NCBI GenBank assembly: GCA_913009315.1
Contig: CAJVZA010000074.1
Location: 1-6,986 of the forward strand
Reading direction: 5' to 3'
Source: an uncultured Hippea sp.
Lineage (GTDB): Bacteria; Campylobacterota_A; Desulfurellia; JAADFJ01
Length of the DNA: 6,986 nucleotides
Part shown: one piece after another, positions 1 to 6,986 of the stretch
Position numbering within the stretch: position 1 is the first letter of the stretch
Layout: each line of letters opens with the position of its first letter
Translations under genes and position numbers: made by a program
Notes under the pieces: model-generated
The model's database searches: none
Told to the model about the DNA's origin: nothing
Seen by the model: only the letters and a program-made list of their open reading frames with translations

Positions 1-94
1 GTCAAATAAAGGGCAATCTTCAGGAAATTAAAATTCTCAAACTAACCGGTTAGTACCTCAAATTTTAATTTCTAAATCTCACCCTTTCTTTGAC
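1..94. repeat. Hairpin B, left copy (long imperfect palindrome)
   Basis: The sequence is an imperfect palindrome centred between 47 and 48. The core ACTAACCGGTTAGT (41-54) is a perfect 14-bp palindrome. AATTAAAATT (26-35) pairs perfectly with AATTTTAATT (61-70). The outer ends GTCAAATAAAGGG (1-13) and CCCTTTCTTTGAC (82-94) pair at 12 of 13 positions. It lies about 50 nt past the stop codon of the last gene, so a transcript would fold strongly here and could be terminated or protected from exonucleases. There is no clean U-tract, so it is not called as an intrinsic terminator. The outermost bases coincide with the window edge, and the palindrome could continue outward. Confidence 0.85.
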
Positions 95-132
95 TTCTGT
101 GAATCTGTTTACTGTGCAGTGGTCTCAATATG
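1..132. repeat. Left copy of a flanking palindromic inverted repeat
   Basis: Positions 7-127 align without gaps to the reverse complement of 6866-6986, with 15 mismatches in 121 positions counted by hand. A weaker match (4 of 5) continues to about 132. The copy holds hairpin B (1-94), then two bases, then only one arm of hairpin A (97-127). Past 132 the similarity stops, and the HAD gene ends at 143, so the repeat sits just beyond the 3' end of the operon. No reading frame in it looks coding. The architecture, a short non-coding imperfect palindrome present in at least two copies, resembles ERIC-type or MITE-type intergenic repeats. That class assignment is inference; no family is recognised. 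Confidence 0.85.
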
Positions 133-142
133 CAAAAAGAGG

Positions 143-775
143 TCAGAAACTATTTTTTATCTCTTCTGCAGCCGTCTCTATACTATGGACATCGTCAATC
201 TGCGCATCTGCATAACCGGATGTTCCTTTGCCGACAAGCACCGTATAAAAACCTGTTCTCTTTGCAGCCTCAATATTTTTTGGATAATCATCAACCATAA
301 TATTTTTTCCGTCAAAATCAGCTGCAATTTTCTCAAAGGTAACGCTTTCGGGTTTCGCATGATAGCAGAAATGACCCGTATCAAAAATTTCTTCAAAACA
401 TTCTTTTATACCGAGGGAATCTAAAACAGCTTCGGCATGCCCTTTTGAAGCATTTGTAAAAATGAATTTTCTTCCTTTGATATTTTCAAGAGAAAGCTTT
501 AATGAAAAATCAGATTTAAGAAATTTGCGTATCTCTATGTCATGAACGTAGTCAAGATAGTTTACAGGATCAACTGAAAAATTGTCTATCAGGCCTCTGA
601 GAGTTGTTCCATATTGATAAAAATAGCTCTTCCTGAGTGCTTCCGCTCTGTCGTTATCCAAATTCAAAAACTTCATAACAAACAGATTTATTCTTTTATC
701 TATAAGTTTAAATAGATCAGGTTTTCGGTAAAGTGTATTATCTAAGTCAAAAAACCAGTTTTCAAGCTGATTCAC
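143..775 (-). CDS. HAD-superfamily hydrolase, pyrimidine 5'-nucleotidase-like
   Basis: This 210-residue cytoplasmic protein has the four HAD phosphatase motifs. Motif I is DLDNT (10-14; nucleophile Asp10, acid/base Asp12), motif II is Thr107 in FTNAS, motif III is Lys141 in HAKPES, and motif IV is the Asp pair 162-163 in VDDYPKN. The early YGTTLRGL segment (55-62), TNA followed by HA, and the helical cap between motifs I and II fit the SDT1-like pyrimidine 5'-nucleotidase subgroup, which dephosphorylates UMP/CMP-type nucleotides. The exact substrate here is inferred. The start is GTG: the frame stays open some 80 nt upstream but has no ATG there, and an AAGGA lies about 11 nt before the GTG. 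It overlaps the small Cys-rich gene by 14 nt and is the last gene of the run. Phosphoglycolate or another small phosphate ester remains a possible substrate. Confidence 0.85.
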   Translation of the reverse strand: MNQLENWFFDLDNTLYRKPDLFKLIDKRINLFVMKFLNLDNDRAEALRKSYFYQYGTTLRGLIDNFSVDPVNYLDYVHDIEIRKFLKSDFSLKLSLENIKGRKFIFTNASKGHAEAVLDSLGIKECFEEIFDTGHFCYHAKPESVTFEKIAADFDGKNIMVDDYPKNIEAAKRTGFYTVLVGKGTSGYADAQIDDVHSIETAAEEIKNSF

Positions 776-932
776 TATTCTCTTTTTCCTTATCTGCTTT
801 TTGCAGTTTAAGACTGATATCTTCTGTATAATCAGGGCATCTCAAAGAGATATCATTGGAAACACTGTATTTTTTAGTGCAGGTAGCACGCCATGCACAA
901 ATAACACATATCGACCCGGAGTTACTCGACAT
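762..932 (-). CDS. Small Cys-rich protein, CxxCxWRxxC...RCPDY type, unknown function
   Basis: This 56-residue ORF fills the apparent gap between leuA and the HAD gene. It starts at an ATG inside the last codons of leuA (11-nt overlap) and stops 14 nt inside the HAD gene. Four cysteines at 9, 12, 18 and 32 form C-x2-C-x5-C-x13-C, in the contexts CVICAWRATCTKK (9-21) and RCPDY (31-35). The tail (about 43-56) is charged and Lys/Glu-rich. Such spacing suggests a zinc- or iron-sulfur-binding knuckle; that is inference. Short proteins with a CxxCxWRxxCxKxF...CPD signature are familiar to me from Desulfobacterota-like genomes but have no assigned role that I know of. There is no signal peptide or membrane segment. 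No strong Shine-Dalgarno precedes the ATG, so it probably depends on coupling to leuA translation. The overlaps at both ends and the regular Cys motif argue that it is a real gene. Confidence 0.8.
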   Translation of the reverse strand: MSSNSGSICVICAWRATCTKKYSVSNDISLRCPDYTEDISLKLQKADKEKENSESA

Positions 933-2448
933 CTTTAAAAAAGAGGTTTTTGTTTATCGAATCAAGAAATGCCGCTGCTGATGCCTGAATAACATCAGTA
1001 TGCGTCCCCATTCCGAGAATCGTTTTTCCAGTATCGGAAAAATGAACCCTCACATGCACCATGCCCATAGCATCTTTTCCTTCACCTACCGATTTTATCT
1101 GATAGTCCTCAAGTTTTACTTTTATCTGTATAATTCTCTCTATGGCTTTATACGCCGCATCCACAGGTCCGTTTCCCTGAGCTGCATCCATAAAAATTGT
1201 CCCGTTTCTCTGGAGTCTGACCGTTGCAGTCGGCATACTGCTGTTTCCACTCACAACCTGCAGTTTAACAAGCTTGAAAATTTCAGGCACGGTTCTGGAT
1301 TGGCTCGCAACAAGGGCATACAGATCATCATCGGTTACTTCCTTCTTCTTGTCGGCAAGAGCTTTGAACCGACCGAACACATTTTCCAATGTTTCAGGTT
1401 TAAGATTTTCAAACCCAAGCTCGGAAAGCCTGTTCACAAGTCCCCTGCGTCCCGAATGTTTACCCAAAATCAGTTTATTTCCGGGCAGCCCTATGTCCTC
1501 GGATTTCATAATCTCGTAGGTGGTTCTCTCTTTTATTACGCCATCCTGATGAATGCCCGCTTCATGCGCAAAAGCATTTATTCCCACAATTGCCTTATTT
1601 CTTTGAATAAATATACCTGTAAGCTGGCTGGCAAGCCGGCTTGAACCGTAAATCTGCTTTGTATCGATTTTGGTGTCGATATCAAAAAAATCATGCCTGG
1701 TTTTCAGTGCCATTACTATCTCTTCAAGAGCAGCATTACCTGCCCGCTCACCCAGACCGTTTAATGTGCACTCCACCTGCCTGGCTCCTGCGAGGATAGC
1801 AGAAAGCGAGTTTGCGGTAGCCATACCGAGATCATTATGACAATGAACGCTTATCACTACATTATCAATGTTGTTTACATTTTTCTTCAAGAAGCTGATA
1901 AGCTCAAAAAATTCCTGCGGAGTTGTATATCCAACGGTATCGGGAATATTAACGGTTGTTGCTCCGGCATCGATGACGGCAGAAACTATATCAACAAGAT
2001 AGCTTCTTTCCGTTCTCGTTGCATCCTCAGGTGAAAATTCAACATCTTCAGTATATTCTTTGGCTAATTTAACCGATTCTACAGCCTTTTTCAGCACCTC
2101 TTCATAGCTCATTCTCAACTTTTTTTTAACATGTACGGGACTTGTAGCTATAAAAGTATGGATTCTTTTTCGACTTGCAGGACTGATTGCATCTGCGGCA
2201 GCTTTGATATCTTTTTCATTTGCTCTTGCCAGCGATGCAATTATCGGTCCTTTTACCTCTTTGGCCACTTTGTTAACGGCATCAAAATCACCCGGGCTGC
2301 TTGCTGCGAAACCGGCCTCTATGATATCAACTTTAAGTTTTGCAAGCTGTTTTGCAAGCTTGAGTTTTTCACCTGTGTTAAGACTTGCCCCAGGTGATTG
2401 CTCGCCATCTCGCAAGGTTGTATCAAATATTTTTACAAACTCAAACAT
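922..2448 (-). CDS. leuA: 2-isopropylmalate synthase
   Basis: LeuA condenses acetyl-CoA with 2-oxoisovalerate, the committed step of leucine synthesis, in the cytoplasm. The 508-residue length is typical. The N-terminal TIM barrel opens with FDTTLRDGEQSPG (8-20), which holds metal ligand Asp9. HCHNDLGMATANS (202-214) gives His202 and His204, and NGLGERAGNAALEE (230-243) gives Asn238. HEAGIHQDG (295-303) is the conserved subdomain motif. Residues from about 380 to the end form the LeuA regulatory/dimerisation domain, the leucine-binding module in studied homologues, so feedback inhibition by leucine is likely. The ATG overlaps the end of pssA by 8 nt, and its strong Shine-Dalgarno AAAGGAGGG (2454-2462) lies inside pssA. 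Citramalate synthase is the main alternative, but the length and motifs favour LeuA. Confidence 0.96.
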   Translation of the reverse strand: MFEFVKIFDTTLRDGEQSPGASLNTGEKLKLAKQLAKLKVDIIEAGFAASSPGDFDAVNKVAKEVKGPIIASLARANEKDIKAAADAISPASRKRIHTFIATSPVHVKKKLRMSYEEVLKKAVESVKLAKEYTEDVEFSPEDATRTERSYLVDIVSAVIDAGATTVNIPDTVGYTTPQEFFELISFLKKNVNNIDNVVISVHCHNDLGMATANSLSAILAGARQVECTLNGLGERAGNAALEEIVMALKTRHDFFDIDTKIDTKQIYGSSRLASQLTGIFIQRNKAIVGINAFAHEAGIHQDGVIKERTTYEIMKSEDIGLPGNKLILGKHSGRRGLVNRLSELGFENLKPETLENVFGRFKALADKKKEVTDDDLYALVASQSRTVPEIFKLVKLQVVSGNSSMPTATVRLQRNGTIFMDAAQGNGPVDAAYKAIERIIQIKVKLEDYQIKSVGEGKDAMGMVHVRVHFSDTGKTILGMGTHTDVIQASAAAFLDSINKNLFFKDVE

Positions 2449-3169
2449 TGTTACCCTCCTTTTGGGCTATCCTGTAATTCCTGATTTTGCGCCTTGTTAA
2501 CTTAGCCAAAAAAATAACAGGGCCGGATGCCGCATAAACAAAAGTTATGGCAGGAATTGCGATCTTAGGCCGCATTATGACAAGTATTATAACAGTTGCA
2601 GTTATCGCAAAAAGATACATAGAAAGTCTTTTAGTTATATTTACATGTTTGAAGCCTTCATACCTTATATTGGATATCATCAAATATGAAGTGATAAACA
2701 TCATCATAAGCGCAGCAACCTTATACTGCAGCAAAGAGAAATCGTCTGAAAGTAAAATCATAGAAACAACAACCAGCGCTCCTCCTGGTATAGGCAGACC
2801 GAAAAACCGGTCATTCTGGCTGGTAACATTAAATTTAGCCAATCTTAATGATCCTGCCAAAAGGTATATAGCAGAAATTACAATTCCCAGGTCGCCTTGA
2901 AAAGAATAAAAATAGCCGTAAAAAAGTATCGCCGGTGCTACACCAAAAGAAACAAGATCGGAAAGTGAGTCATATTCAAAACCGAACCTACTGGTAGCAC
3001 TGATTAGACGGGCAATTTTACCATCCAGATTGTCAAACACAACTGCCAATGCAATAGCTATAGCCGCATCAAAAAAACGCCCTCTGAATGAGAATATAAT
3101 TGAATAGAATCCTGCCATAAGATTGGCGGCAGTAAACAGATTGGGGAATAGATATATTGTTCTTTTCAT
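2441..3169 (-). CDS. pssA: CDP-diacylglycerol--serine O-phosphatidyltransferase
   Basis: This 242-residue integral membrane enzyme transfers phosphatidyl from CDP-diacylglycerol to L-serine, giving phosphatidylserine, the precursor of phosphatidylethanolamine. The CDP-alcohol phosphatidyltransferase signature D-x2-DG-x2-AR-x8-G-x3-D-x3-D is complete: Asp46, Asp49, Gly50, Ala53, Arg54, Gly63, Asp67 and Asp71. Several hydrophobic stretches (about 33-45, 75-90, 95-110, 127-140, 150-166, 184-199 and 203-222) fit a polytopic protein with a basic C-terminal tail. The N-terminus MKRTIYLFPNLFTAANL is typical of the short bacterial class II form. The start is fixed by an in-frame TAA nearby upstream; no good Shine-Dalgarno is seen. 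It lies between ilvC and leuA without its usual metabolic partner psd, and its end overlaps leuA. Confidence 0.95.
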   Translation of the reverse strand: MKRTIYLFPNLFTAANLMAGFYSIIFSFRGRFFDAAIAIALAVVFDNLDGKIARLISATSRFGFEYDSLSDLVSFGVAPAILFYGYFYSFQGDLGIVISAIYLLAGSLRLAKFNVTSQNDRFFGLPIPGGALVVVSMILLSDDFSLLQYKVAALMMMFITSYLMISNIRYEGFKHVNITKRLSMYLFAITATVIILVIMRPKIAIPAITFVYAASGPVIFLAKLTRRKIRNYRIAQKEGNNV

Positions 3170-3267
3170 AAAAATTTATTCATCTATATTTTTATAAATT
3201 TCATTAGTCATTTTTCATAGAATCTAACTGTTTTCATATTTGCAATCCTCGTAAAGTCTTTATCTGA

Positions 3268-3273
3268 ATTATA
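3268..3273 (-). promoter_or_regulatory. Possible -10 box for pssA-leuA transcription
   Basis: The minus strand reads TATAAT, a perfect -10 consensus, about 100 nt upstream of the pssA start. The hexamer 17 nt upstream (ATGGAA) is a poor -35 match at 3 of 6, so the promoter rests on the -10 box and its place in the only long gap of the run. It would give pssA, leuA and the two downstream genes a start independent of ilvBNC. Confidence 0.35.
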
Positions 3274-3378
3274 CTCCTTTTTGCGGCAGATTCCATCTTT
3301 TTTGCCAGTTTGCCGGCGTACGACATACAGACAGATAAGCGACTTACCTCTTGCTTAGTTCCTATCTGATTGCTACTT

Positions 3379-3413
3379 GGATAGACAAGCAAGATTCTAT
3401 CCTGCTTGTCTAT
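3379..3413. repeat. Hairpin with two overlapping, mutually exclusive stems
   Basis: ATAGACAAGCA (3381-3391) and TGCTTGTCTAT (3403-3413) form a perfect 11-bp stem with an 11-nt loop. GGATAGA (3379-3385) can instead pair with TCTATCC (3396-3402), a perfect 7-bp stem that uses part of the same sequence. TTGGATA occurs as a direct repeat on both sides (3377-3383 and 3413-3419). The hairpin lies about 80-110 nt past the ilvC stop. It has no following U-tract in the minus-strand transcript, so it is not a typical intrinsic terminator. An RNA-processing or stabilising element, or a small mobile-repeat scar, is possible. Confidence 0.6.
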
Positions 3414-3491
3414 TGGATACCTCTATTTATAACCATCATTCCAGGGACCGCAAACTTACCGTACAGCCCGAGATGTATTTTATGAAACCTG

Positions 3492-4511
<1,020 letters not shown>

Positions 4512-4534
4512 CTATATACCTCCACAAAAAATAG

Positions 4535-5020
4535 TTAGCTTGTTTTCAGTTCCCTTGTTAATGCTGCAAGACCGGTGCGGGCAATCTCTTTGATGCCAAA
4601 CGACCTGAAGAGAGATATAACGGCATTTATCTTTCCCGAATCTCCGGATATGGCTATGGTATAACTTTCAGACGATAAGTCAACAATGTTGCCTCTAAAA
4701 ATATCTGTTATCCTTAATATCTCAGCTCTGTTTGTATCCTTTGTATGCATCTTGATCAGCACAAGCTCCCGTTCAACAGCAGGCTGATCATTCAAGTTTA
4801 TCACCTTGAGACAGTTTACCATTCTGTTAAGCTGTTTTTCAATCTGCTCCACTATCTCTTTCTCTCCCTCCACCACAATGGTCATTCTGCTTACCCCTTC
4901 ATCATGAGTGGGCGCCACATTAAGGCTTTCTATATTATATCCTCTTGCAGCAAAAAGATTTGCAACGCGCGAGAGAACACCATATTCATTATTTACCAGT
5001 ACCGATAATCTTATTCTCAT
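4535..5020 (-). CDS. ilvN: Acetolactate synthase small (regulatory) subunit
   Basis: This is the regulatory subunit of acetohydroxyacid synthase. It activates the large subunit and carries valine feedback inhibition. At 161 residues it matches the IlvH-like full-length form. An N-terminal ACT domain (about 2-76) starts LSVLVNNEYGVLSRVANLF, followed by RGYNIESLNVAPT (26-38), and a second ACT-like C-terminal domain spans about 84-158. Asn11, Gly14 and Asn29, positions whose mutation makes E. coli IlvH valine-resistant, are all present, so valine sensitivity is likely (inference from the family). A GGGAG lies about 6 nt before the ATG. It follows ilvB by only 10 nt, as expected for equimolar partner subunits. 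ilvH would be an equally acceptable symbol. Confidence 0.96.
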   Translation of the reverse strand: MRIRLSVLVNNEYGVLSRVANLFAARGYNIESLNVAPTHDEGVSRMTIVVEGEKEIVEQIEKQLNRMVNCLKVINLNDQPAVERELVLIKMHTKDTNRAEILRITDIFRGNIVDLSSESYTIAISGDSGKINAVISLFRSFGIKEIARTGLAALTRELKTS

Positions 5021-5030
5021 ATCAATCTCC

Positions 5031-6725
5031 CTAAACCAATATCATCCGGTCAAGCGGTGCTCCTGAAGGCACCATGGGATATACATTTTCCAACCTGTCC
5101 ACAACAACATCAAGCAGGTATGCTCCATCGTATTCCACCATGGTTCTGACTGCTTTATCAAGTTCATCAGGCTTGGAAACCCTTCCGGCTTCAATTCCAT
5201 ACGCATTGGCAACCTTCACAAAATCAGGCTGGAATGTCATATCGGTATGAGCATAACGATTGTTAAAAAACAGATTCTGCCATTGCCTGACCATTCCAAG
5301 ATATCTGTTGTTTATTATCATTATCTTAAGCTTCAGTTTTTCCTGAACAATTGTTGCAAGTTCCTGGATATTCATCTGAAAACTTCCGTCTCCATCTATG
5401 TCAACAACAATTCTGTCTCTGTATGCCGTCTGCGCCCCAATAGCGGCAGGAAGACCATAGCCCATTGTTCCCAAACCTCCGGAAGTAAGAAAACTGCGCG
5501 GTCTGGATAACTTCATATACTGCGGTGCCCACATCTGATGCTGGCCTACTCCTACGGCAATAATAGGATTTTTTCCTGCAAGAATATCCGACAAACAGCT
5601 TATTGCCTGCTGAGGCTTTATAACATCAGGGTTCTTTTTATAATCAAGACGATGTTCCGTTTTCCATCTGTTTACCGTTTCAAGCCATTTTTTATATTTG
5701 GATTTATAGAAATCCACCGGTTCCGCTATCCTTTCTACGACCTCAAGAATCTGATTCAGTACAATCTTAAGATCTCCAACGATGGGATATTCCGTAGTAA
5801 CATTTTTTCCTATAGACACCGGATCTACATCTATATGAGCAATTTTTGCCTGTGCAGCAAATTCATCGAGTTTGCCGGTAATTCTGTCATCAAAACGTGC
5901 TCCCAATGAAAAGAGGAAATCGCAGTTCTGGATAGCCATATTTGAACTATAAGTGCCATGCATTCCCGCCATTCCCAGAAGCAGTTCGCTTTCCGGGTCA
6001 AATACACCCTGCCCCATAAGTGTCACAAATGCGGGTATCTGCAGTCTGTTAGCCAATTTTGCTATCTGCCCGGATGCGTTTGAGCTTATTGCACCTCCTC
6101 CTATATAGAGAAGCGGTTTTTTAGACTTCAACAATGCCTTTGCCACCTTCTCTATCTGATGAGGATTGCCCTTTGTTGTGGGGTTATAGCCGCTCAGCTC
6201 AACCGTTTTTGGATATACAAATCGACTTTCACCCAGAATCACATCCTTCGGAAGATCGATAAGTACCGGCCCGGGTTTGCCGGATTTCGCAATATAAAAT
6301 GCCTCTTTTATGGTTCTGGCAAGTTCTGAGACGTTTTTCACCAGAAAATTATGCTTTGTGCAGGGACGTGAGATGCCTACCGTATCAGCTTCCTGAAATG
6401 CATCGTTTCCTATCAACGTTGTGGGCACCTGGCCGGTAAGAACTACAAGCGGTATAGAATCCATGTATGCAGTAGCTATACCTGTTATAGTATTGGTGGC
6501 TCCAGGTCCGCTTGTAGCGAGGACTACTCCCACCTTACCTGTTGCACGGGCATAACCGTCAGCCTCATGCGTGGCCCCCTGTTCATGGCGGGCAAGAATG
6601 TAATGAATCTCTTTCTCGTCCATAAGTGCATCATCAATTGCCATTATGGCGCCGCCCGGATATCCAAAAATGGTATCAACACCCTCTTTTTTTAGCGATT
6701 CGACGATTATATTACAACCTTTCAT
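5031..6725 (-). CDS. ilvB: Acetolactate synthase large (catalytic) subunit
   Basis: This ThDP-, FAD- and Mg2+-dependent enzyme condenses two pyruvates to 2-acetolactate, or pyruvate and 2-oxobutyrate to acetohydroxybutyrate, the first common branched-chain step. The 564 residues show the usual three domains. The N-terminal pyrimidine-binding domain has FGYPGGAIM (20-28) and the ThDP-activating Glu48 in RHEQGA. The middle FAD domain includes GMAGMHGT (251-258) and GARFDDR (275-281). The C-terminal domain has the ThDP/Mg motif GDGSF (445-449) running to NN (472-473), then MVRQWQ (478-483). The C-terminus ENVYPMVPSGAPLDRMI is typical. The start is fixed by a strong Shine-Dalgarno; a nearby upstream ATG hits a stop within six codons. 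It is the first gene of the run and follows a candidate promoter. Confidence 0.97.
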   Translation of the reverse strand: MKGCNIIVESLKKEGVDTIFGYPGGAIMAIDDALMDEKEIHYILARHEQGATHEADGYARATGKVGVVLATSGPGATNTITGIATAYMDSIPLVVLTGQVPTTLIGNDAFQEADTVGISRPCTKHNFLVKNVSELARTIKEAFYIAKSGKPGPVLIDLPKDVILGESRFVYPKTVELSGYNPTTKGNPHQIEKVAKALLKSKKPLLYIGGGAISSNASGQIAKLANRLQIPAFVTLMGQGVFDPESELLLGMAGMHGTYSSNMAIQNCDFLFSLGARFDDRITGKLDEFAAQAKIAHIDVDPVSIGKNVTTEYPIVGDLKIVLNQILEVVERIAEPVDFYKSKYKKWLETVNRWKTEHRLDYKKNPDVIKPQQAISCLSDILAGKNPIIAVGVGQHQMWAPQYMKLSRPRSFLTSGGLGTMGYGLPAAIGAQTAYRDRIVVDIDGDGSFQMNIQELATIVQEKLKLKIMIINNRYLGMVRQWQNLFFNNRYAHTDMTFQPDFVKVANAYGIEAGRVSKPDELDKAVRTMVEYDGAYLLDVVVDRLENVYPMVPSGAPLDRMILV

Positions 6726-6730
6726 CAGCC

Positions 6731-6740
6731 ATCACCCCCT
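6731..6740 (-). promoter_or_regulatory. Ribosome binding site of ilvB
   Basis: The minus strand reads AGGGGGTGAT, a near match to the anti-Shine-Dalgarno complement, ending five bases before the ATG at 6725. It decides between this ATG and the ATG six bases upstream, whose frame closes within six codons. Confidence 0.8.
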
Positions 6741-6754
6741 AAGTTTGAACTGTT

Positions 6755-6783
6755 ATACTATACCACAACTTTAATCTTTTCAA
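6755..6783 (-). promoter_or_regulatory. Candidate sigma70-type promoter of the ilv run
   Basis: On the minus strand TTGAAA (6778-6783) is followed after exactly 17 bases by TAGTAT (6755-6760). These match the -35 and -10 consensus at 4 of 6 and 4 of 6. An overlapping TATAGT (6757-6762) is an alternative -10 with a 15-bp spacer. Transcription would start near 6747, giving a leader of about 20 nt that consists mostly of the ribosome binding site. That leaves no room for a leader-peptide attenuator or T-box, so control would have to act at initiation or on the enzymes. A promoter further upstream, within the right repeat, is not excluded. Confidence 0.55.
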
Positions 6784-6831
6784 GGAAGATAACTAAATAT
6801 AGAGTTGCCTTGTAGAAAACCTTATAAAAAG

Positions 6832-6896
6832 CTGTGAATCTGTTTACTTCGCAGCAATCTCATAATGAGACCACTGCGCAATAAGCGCATCCACAG
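6832..6896. repeat. Hairpin A, complete copy
   Basis: This 65-bp imperfect palindrome is centred on 6864. Its central TCTCATAATGAGA (6858-6870) is a perfect palindrome around one base. Further out, pairing continues in blocks (GCAG/CTGC region, TTTA/TAAA region) to CTGTG (6832-6836) and CACAG (6892-6896). By hand about 24 of 32 positions pair, with wobbles in addition. Only one arm of this hairpin survives in the left copy. Its inner foot is about 50 bp upstream of the candidate ilvB -35 box. Confidence 0.75.
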
Positions 6897-6898
6897 AA

Positions 6899-6986
6899 GT
6901 CAAAGAAAGGGCAAGATTTAAAGATTAAAATTTGAGGGACTAACCGGTTAGTTTGAAAATTGTAATTTATTGAAGATTGCCCTTTA
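6899..6986. repeat. Hairpin B, right copy (cut by window edge)
   Basis: The same perfect core ACTAACCGGTTAGT lies at 6939-6952. AAAGGGCAA (6906-6914) pairs perfectly with TTGCCCTTT (6977-6985). The inner end GTCAAAG (6899-6905) has no visible partner because the window stops. By symmetry with the left copy the palindrome should close with TTTGAC just beyond the edge, at about 6987-6992. Confidence 0.8.

Follow-up and report, generated by a model that had tools for sequence, protein, structure and literature searches.

Inverted Repeats at Both Ends of an ilvBNC-pssA-leuA Operon Contig Are Separate Insertions of an IS5-Family MITE in an Uncultured Hippea

Why should a run of biosynthetic genes lie between two inverted copies of one palindromic repeat? 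The question is raised by the window studied here, that is, the whole stretch of 6,986 nucleotides that was analysed, from an uncultured Hippea sp. Its six genes, all on the minus strand, were assigned by NCBIfam as ilvB, ilvN, ilvC, pssA, leuA, and a HAD-type pyrimidine 5'-nucleotidase gene. A sequence-only reading had placed this run, from ilvB to the HAD gene, between two inverted, noncoding, palindromic repeats of roughly 88% identity, and had considered a composite mobile unit, an invertible segment or, more simply, a common intergenic repeat standing at both ends of an operon. The description itself was borne out. When the window was scanned for inverted repeats, positions 7-132 and 6861-6986 formed a pair of 126 nt that was 87% complementary and by far the longest in the window; neither repeat was coding, an internal palindrome was found in each, and the six genes lay between them. 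Among the interpretations, the simpler one proved right: we consider, with a probability of about 0.93, that the bracket arises from assembly and ascertainment, superimposed on an ordinary MITE family.

The genome search placed the window at positions 1-6986 of contig C74 (G000:C74:1-6986), and the window is all of this contig (6986 bases). The repeats thus stand at both window ends because the contig ends there, and each of them is about half of a larger element. The source genome (G000) is a draft of 96 contigs and 1.74 Mb (88% complete), in which a 150-base query from the left end of the window had 76 matches. Moreover, at least 29 of its contig ends were located no more than 500 bp from a terminal inverted repeat (TIR) of the family described below, while 5.5 would be expected per 100 randomly placed sites. 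Most of these ends stopped 100-108 bases from the TIR, and we infer that such regular stops are the trace of an assembler halting inside the repeat.

The structure and distribution of the repeat were then characterized. Complete two-arm copies were about 265 bp long (273 bp with flanks), with TIRs of about 36 bp; they started with TGAGACCACTGCRCARTAARC and ended in its reverse complement, and TGAGACCACTGCRCARTAARC was found at both ends in 60 paired copies. The predicted single-strand fold of the 273 nt consisted of a long closing stem and two hairpin arms (-116 kcal/mol). TIRs were counted with a 21-base pattern allowing up to 3 mismatches, and the reversed pattern, used as a control, gave 0 matches. 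The source genome contained 83 forward and 86 reverse TIRs (169) and carries about 85 MITE copies, while the genome of a sister species (G001) contained 79 and 71 (150) and that of a second sister species, a congener (G002), only 1 and 2 (3). The TIR was not found, at up to 2 mismatches, in 22 other genomes of the phylum; viral contigs had neither a TIR match nor relatives of the transposases, and a search of Rfam with the repeat returned no match. The family is confined to one genus and almost absent from one congener. A full two-arm copy was also observed on contig JAADIB010000398.1 (L084), which is binned as part of a Chlorobiota MAG; its assembly contig naming is shared with a Campylobacterota MAG, and the contig is probably misbinned.

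Identical 3-bp flanks, mostly TTA or TAA, were found in 33 of the 60 paired copies, usually with A before and T after the target. Among the 39 copies in which both flanks were TTA or TAA, 32 had the same triplet on both sides (Fisher P = 9e-5). The flanks of the other 27 copies did not match, which we attribute to mutation or rearrangement. A TA duplication of the IS630 type was rejected, because the third base of the flank covaries. None of 51 scored copies lay inside an ORF (cut-off of at least 80 aa), and the copies themselves have no ORF. Since the TIRs, the 3-bp duplication, the lack of an ORF, the intergenic position, and the multiple copies fit the marks reviewed in PMC10969869, the repeat is a MITE. 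Literature searches on nested bacterial MITEs and on MITEs in Campylobacterota found nothing relevant, and the family is apparently undescribed, although of a known kind.

The two copies in the window were more similar to copies elsewhere than to each other. Copies in C24 and C14 shared 99.2% identity with the left one, and a copy in C2 was 100% identical to the right one, while the two were only 87% identical to each other. The missing halves were found at the ends of two other contigs. The tail of C40 agreed at 100% with the left part of the copy in C2, and the right part of this C2 copy equals the right-hand copy of the window; likewise, the head of C75 and one side of the C14 copy were 99.2% identical, and the left-hand copy of the window matches the other side. 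At the C40/C74 junction TTA stood on both sides (C40, GAAGCATTA followed by TGAGACC; reverse complement of C74, GGTCTCA followed by TTATGAGATTGC), and at the C74/C75 junction TAT did so (reverse complement of C74, ...GCATAT followed by TGAGACC; C75, GGTCTCA followed by TATTACG). The bracketing copies are therefore separate insertions of different subtypes, each with its own target duplication (table 1).

Table 1. Features of the window and of the related sites, with coordinates (window positions unless a contig is named)
Feature	Position	Strand	Remark
Right-hand part (second hairpin arm and right TIR) of the HAD-lon MITE	1..127	+	Rest on contig C75
TIR of the HAD-lon copy	97..127	-	Minus-strand start TGAGACCACTGCACAGTAAAC; fits the TIR pattern exactly at 107-127
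Target-site duplication of the HAD-lon copy	128..130	.	TAT in operon direction, ATA on +; second copy on C75
Operon ilvB-ilvN-ilvC-pssA-leuA-HAD nucleotidase	143..6725	-	Ordinary; outside the mobile element; NCBIfam assignments
Remains of an older, degenerate MITE copy (TIR plus some of the first arm)	6808..6862	+	ilvB side of the new insertion
Target-site duplication of the gltX-ilvB copy	6863..6865	.	TAA (TTA in operon direction)
Right-hand part (second arm and right TIR) of the two-arm gltX-ilvB MITE	6866..6986	-	Left part on contig C40
gltX stop within TIR	G000 C40 end (L159, about 1393); G001 C90 7060-7066 (L132)		
Orthologous size-difference site	G000 C8 1192-1245 of L140; G001 C24 601-1059 of L144		

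The gene order in the relatives agreed with this arrangement. On contig C90 of the sister species, eno, gltX, ilvB-ilvN-ilvC-pssA-leuA-HAD, and lon follow one another in this order, with 93% DNA identity to the window across 6.75 kb; outside the six window genes, eno, gltX, and lon are what we take these genes to be from reading their translations. In the source genome, the end of C40 carries gltX and the start of C75 carries lon. Because the element halves match in subtype and flank and the gene order is that of the sister species, it is almost certain that C40, C74 (in reverse), and C75 adjoin one another, in the order and orientation seen there. The junction of gltX and ilvB differed among the three genomes: no element was found in the second sister species, where ilvB directly follows gltX, only a degenerate TIR in the first, and, in the source genome, a degenerate remnant similar to the latter plus a new two-arm copy at its edge, with TTA between them. 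It was also observed that the gltX stop codon in the source genome and in the first sister species is the TGA that opens a MITE TIR, and TAG in the second.

Could the operon and its two repeats nevertheless move together, as a composite nonautonomous unit resembling a TIME-COMP? Inverted copies do stand at both ends, and cargo units bounded by MITEs are known elsewhere (PMC13367494; an Acinetobacter example in PMC10969869). However, the target-site duplication that such a unit should leave outside both copies was looked for and the outer flanks disagreed, TTA against TAT, each copy having a duplication of its own. Moreover, the copies resemble distant ones (99-100%) more than each other, the genome has one ilvB only, gltX and lon flank the operon in the sister species too, and gltX adjoins ilvB in the second sister species without any element. 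Dozens of copies at unrelated intergenic sites, and an operon with the same place and orientation in the sister species, likewise speak against mobility, and the mobile unit, its bracket being made by contig breaks, is largely refuted and extremely improbable. In the sister genome, too, the genes follow one another as gltX-ilvBNC-pssA-leuA-HAD-lon; the operon is ordinary and stationary. An invertible switch working through recombination between the repeats, for which the inverted orientation of the common 126 bp could be cited, also fared badly and is highly improbable: only the orientation of the sister species gives element halves that agree in subtype and flank across each break, whereas inversion would mix them, and one orientation only was seen in the assembled contigs of the two species.

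Another explanation is that the repeat is not a selfish MITE but a functional host element, for example a terminator or an RNA-processing structure, selected at operon boundaries. The predicted fold is very stable, every scored copy is intergenic, and the TIR supplies the gltX stop codon. On the other hand, the genes around the copies showed no preference for 3' ends or convergent pairs (3'-3', 13; 5'-5', 11; mixed, 18), and a terminator role was thus unsupported by gene orientation. Transposition is suggested instead by the target duplications and by an IS that carries the same TIR, and the restriction to one genus, with near absence from a congener, and the lack of an Rfam match also argue against a host function, which we regard as very unlikely. 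In the preferred reading, an assembly effect on a MITE family, about 85 nonautonomous IS5-family MITEs lie in the intergenic DNA of the source genome. They were most likely moved by an IS5-family transposase that recognizes the TIR of about 21 bp and duplicates 3 bp of the target, in most cases TTA or TAA. Each of the two gaps flanking the operon, the one from gltX to ilvB and the one from the HAD gene to lon, holds an insertion of its own, and since neither copy was crossed by the assembly, C74 starts and ends inside them.

The likely parent transposase was sought through the TIR. The exact 21-base TIR was found about 140 bp upstream of an IS5-family transposase relic on contig C15 of the source genome (positions 2359-3234, minus strand), an ORF truncated at its 3' end. 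An exact TIR was also found in a Sulfurimonas single-cell genome (L083), just upstream of the start of a truncated IS5-like transposase; one chance match is expected in a collection of that size, and by itself this match proves nothing. The protein fragment beside it led to an IS5-family transposase on the Aliarcobacter cibarius plasmid pACIB, where the IS is complete, with ends AGAGACCACTGCA and TGAGCCCACTGCA, which are nearly identical to those of the MITEs, and TAT on both sides. This transposase was 56% identical to the C15 ORF over 281 residues. The MITEs are most likely derivatives of this IS5 lineage, with the TIR alone in common, and the truncated C15 transposase with its identical TIR is their likely source. 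An intact TIR-matched transposase was not found in the source genome or in the first sister species, the only match in the former being the truncated one; multicopy elements are lost in draft assemblies, which may account for the missing partner. PF13586 transposases were absent from the three congeneric genomes, and the other PF01609 transposases of these genomes were rejected as parents, their ends being different or without a match. An IS5-like ORF on contig C85 was rejected as well, since it shares with the family just the terminal hexamer GAGACC and a flanking TTA. At the start of C85 (L109, 53-119) stands what appears to be an Illumina adapter and its index, left untrimmed (CAAGCAGAAGACGGCATACGAGAT...GTGTGCTCTTCCGATCT), which makes this contig end an assembly artefact.

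The family also varied in size. The 60 readable paired elements fell into classes of 51-54, about 158, about 265, and about 430 bp; the clear classes spanned 51 to about 460 bp, and one outlier pair measured 583 bp. Copies of about 430 bp of the C14 type carry a third hairpin module. Because this module also occurs by itself (49 matches in the source genome, 48 in the first sister species, and none in the second, hence 97 in the first two), it is most likely a MITE family of its own, nested in the first. The members of this second hairpin family measure about 160 bp and have ends GGGCAACTCTATTAAT or GGGCACTTCTGTTAAT (L003:1722-1881). Furthermore, one copy of about 430 bp on contig C10 of the sister species (L095, 5633-6062) was enlarged by a different insert, whose ends GAGGCTGTTGA and TCAACAGGCTC resemble those of another DDE transposase element in that genome, which indicates another nested element. 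At one orthologous site, with flanks 90-93% identical, a 54-bp hairpin in the source genome corresponded to a 459-bp nested copy in the sister species (table 1). The 51- and 54-bp sequences resemble a left TIR fused to the inner end of a right TIR at short microhomologies, and such hairpins are probably products of internal deletion. Within the genome, the MITEs gain length as hairpin modules become nested in them, and they probably lose it by internal deletion, down to hairpins of 51-54 bp. It is conceivable, but unlikely, that the multi-arm MITE is a modular element which takes up other hairpin MITEs again and again, always at the same internal positions, and falls back to a small hairpin of fixed form, its branched form (a three- or four-way junction) being maintained as a transposition aid or a transcription boundary.

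These results dispose of a false lead, namely that the biosynthetic operon is mobile or invertible, and show how a composite mobile unit can be mimicked when contigs break inside repeats. They also define an IS5-family MITE of an uncultured Campylobacterota genus by its TIR, its target, and its likely parent transposase, explain part of the genome fragmentation in this lineage, and supply a clear example of a MITE that has grown by nesting, or collapsed, at an orthologous site.

In comparison with the MITE hallmarks reviewed in PMC10969869, the family is typical in being short, intergenic, without an ORF, and high in copy number, with TIRs, short direct repeats at insertion sites, a stable (here predicted) stem-loop fold, and a TIR common to an IS of the same genome. 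What sets it apart from known MITEs is an unusually regular modular build: one hairpin encloses further hairpin arms, there are four size classes, and one of the arms is itself a second MITE family. TIME-COMPs and other MITE-bounded composite units (PMC13367494) are similar only superficially, in the geometry of genes between two inverted copies; here the copies are no matched pair, there is no common outer target duplication, and the genes are stationary. Among IS5-family IS, those with DUF772 and DDE_Tnp_1 transposases (A. cibarius pACIB, WP_151029581.1) have terminal GAG(A/C)CCACTGCA at both ends and a 3-bp duplication, as here, while the MITEs retain the TIR only, without a transposase gene. 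BOX elements are modular small repeats, similar to the present family in their variable size and stable fold. Those of Streptococcus pneumoniae are named in PMC10969869 and PMC3049150; in the family described here, by contrast, the modules are hairpins nested inside the TIRs of an IS5-type element.
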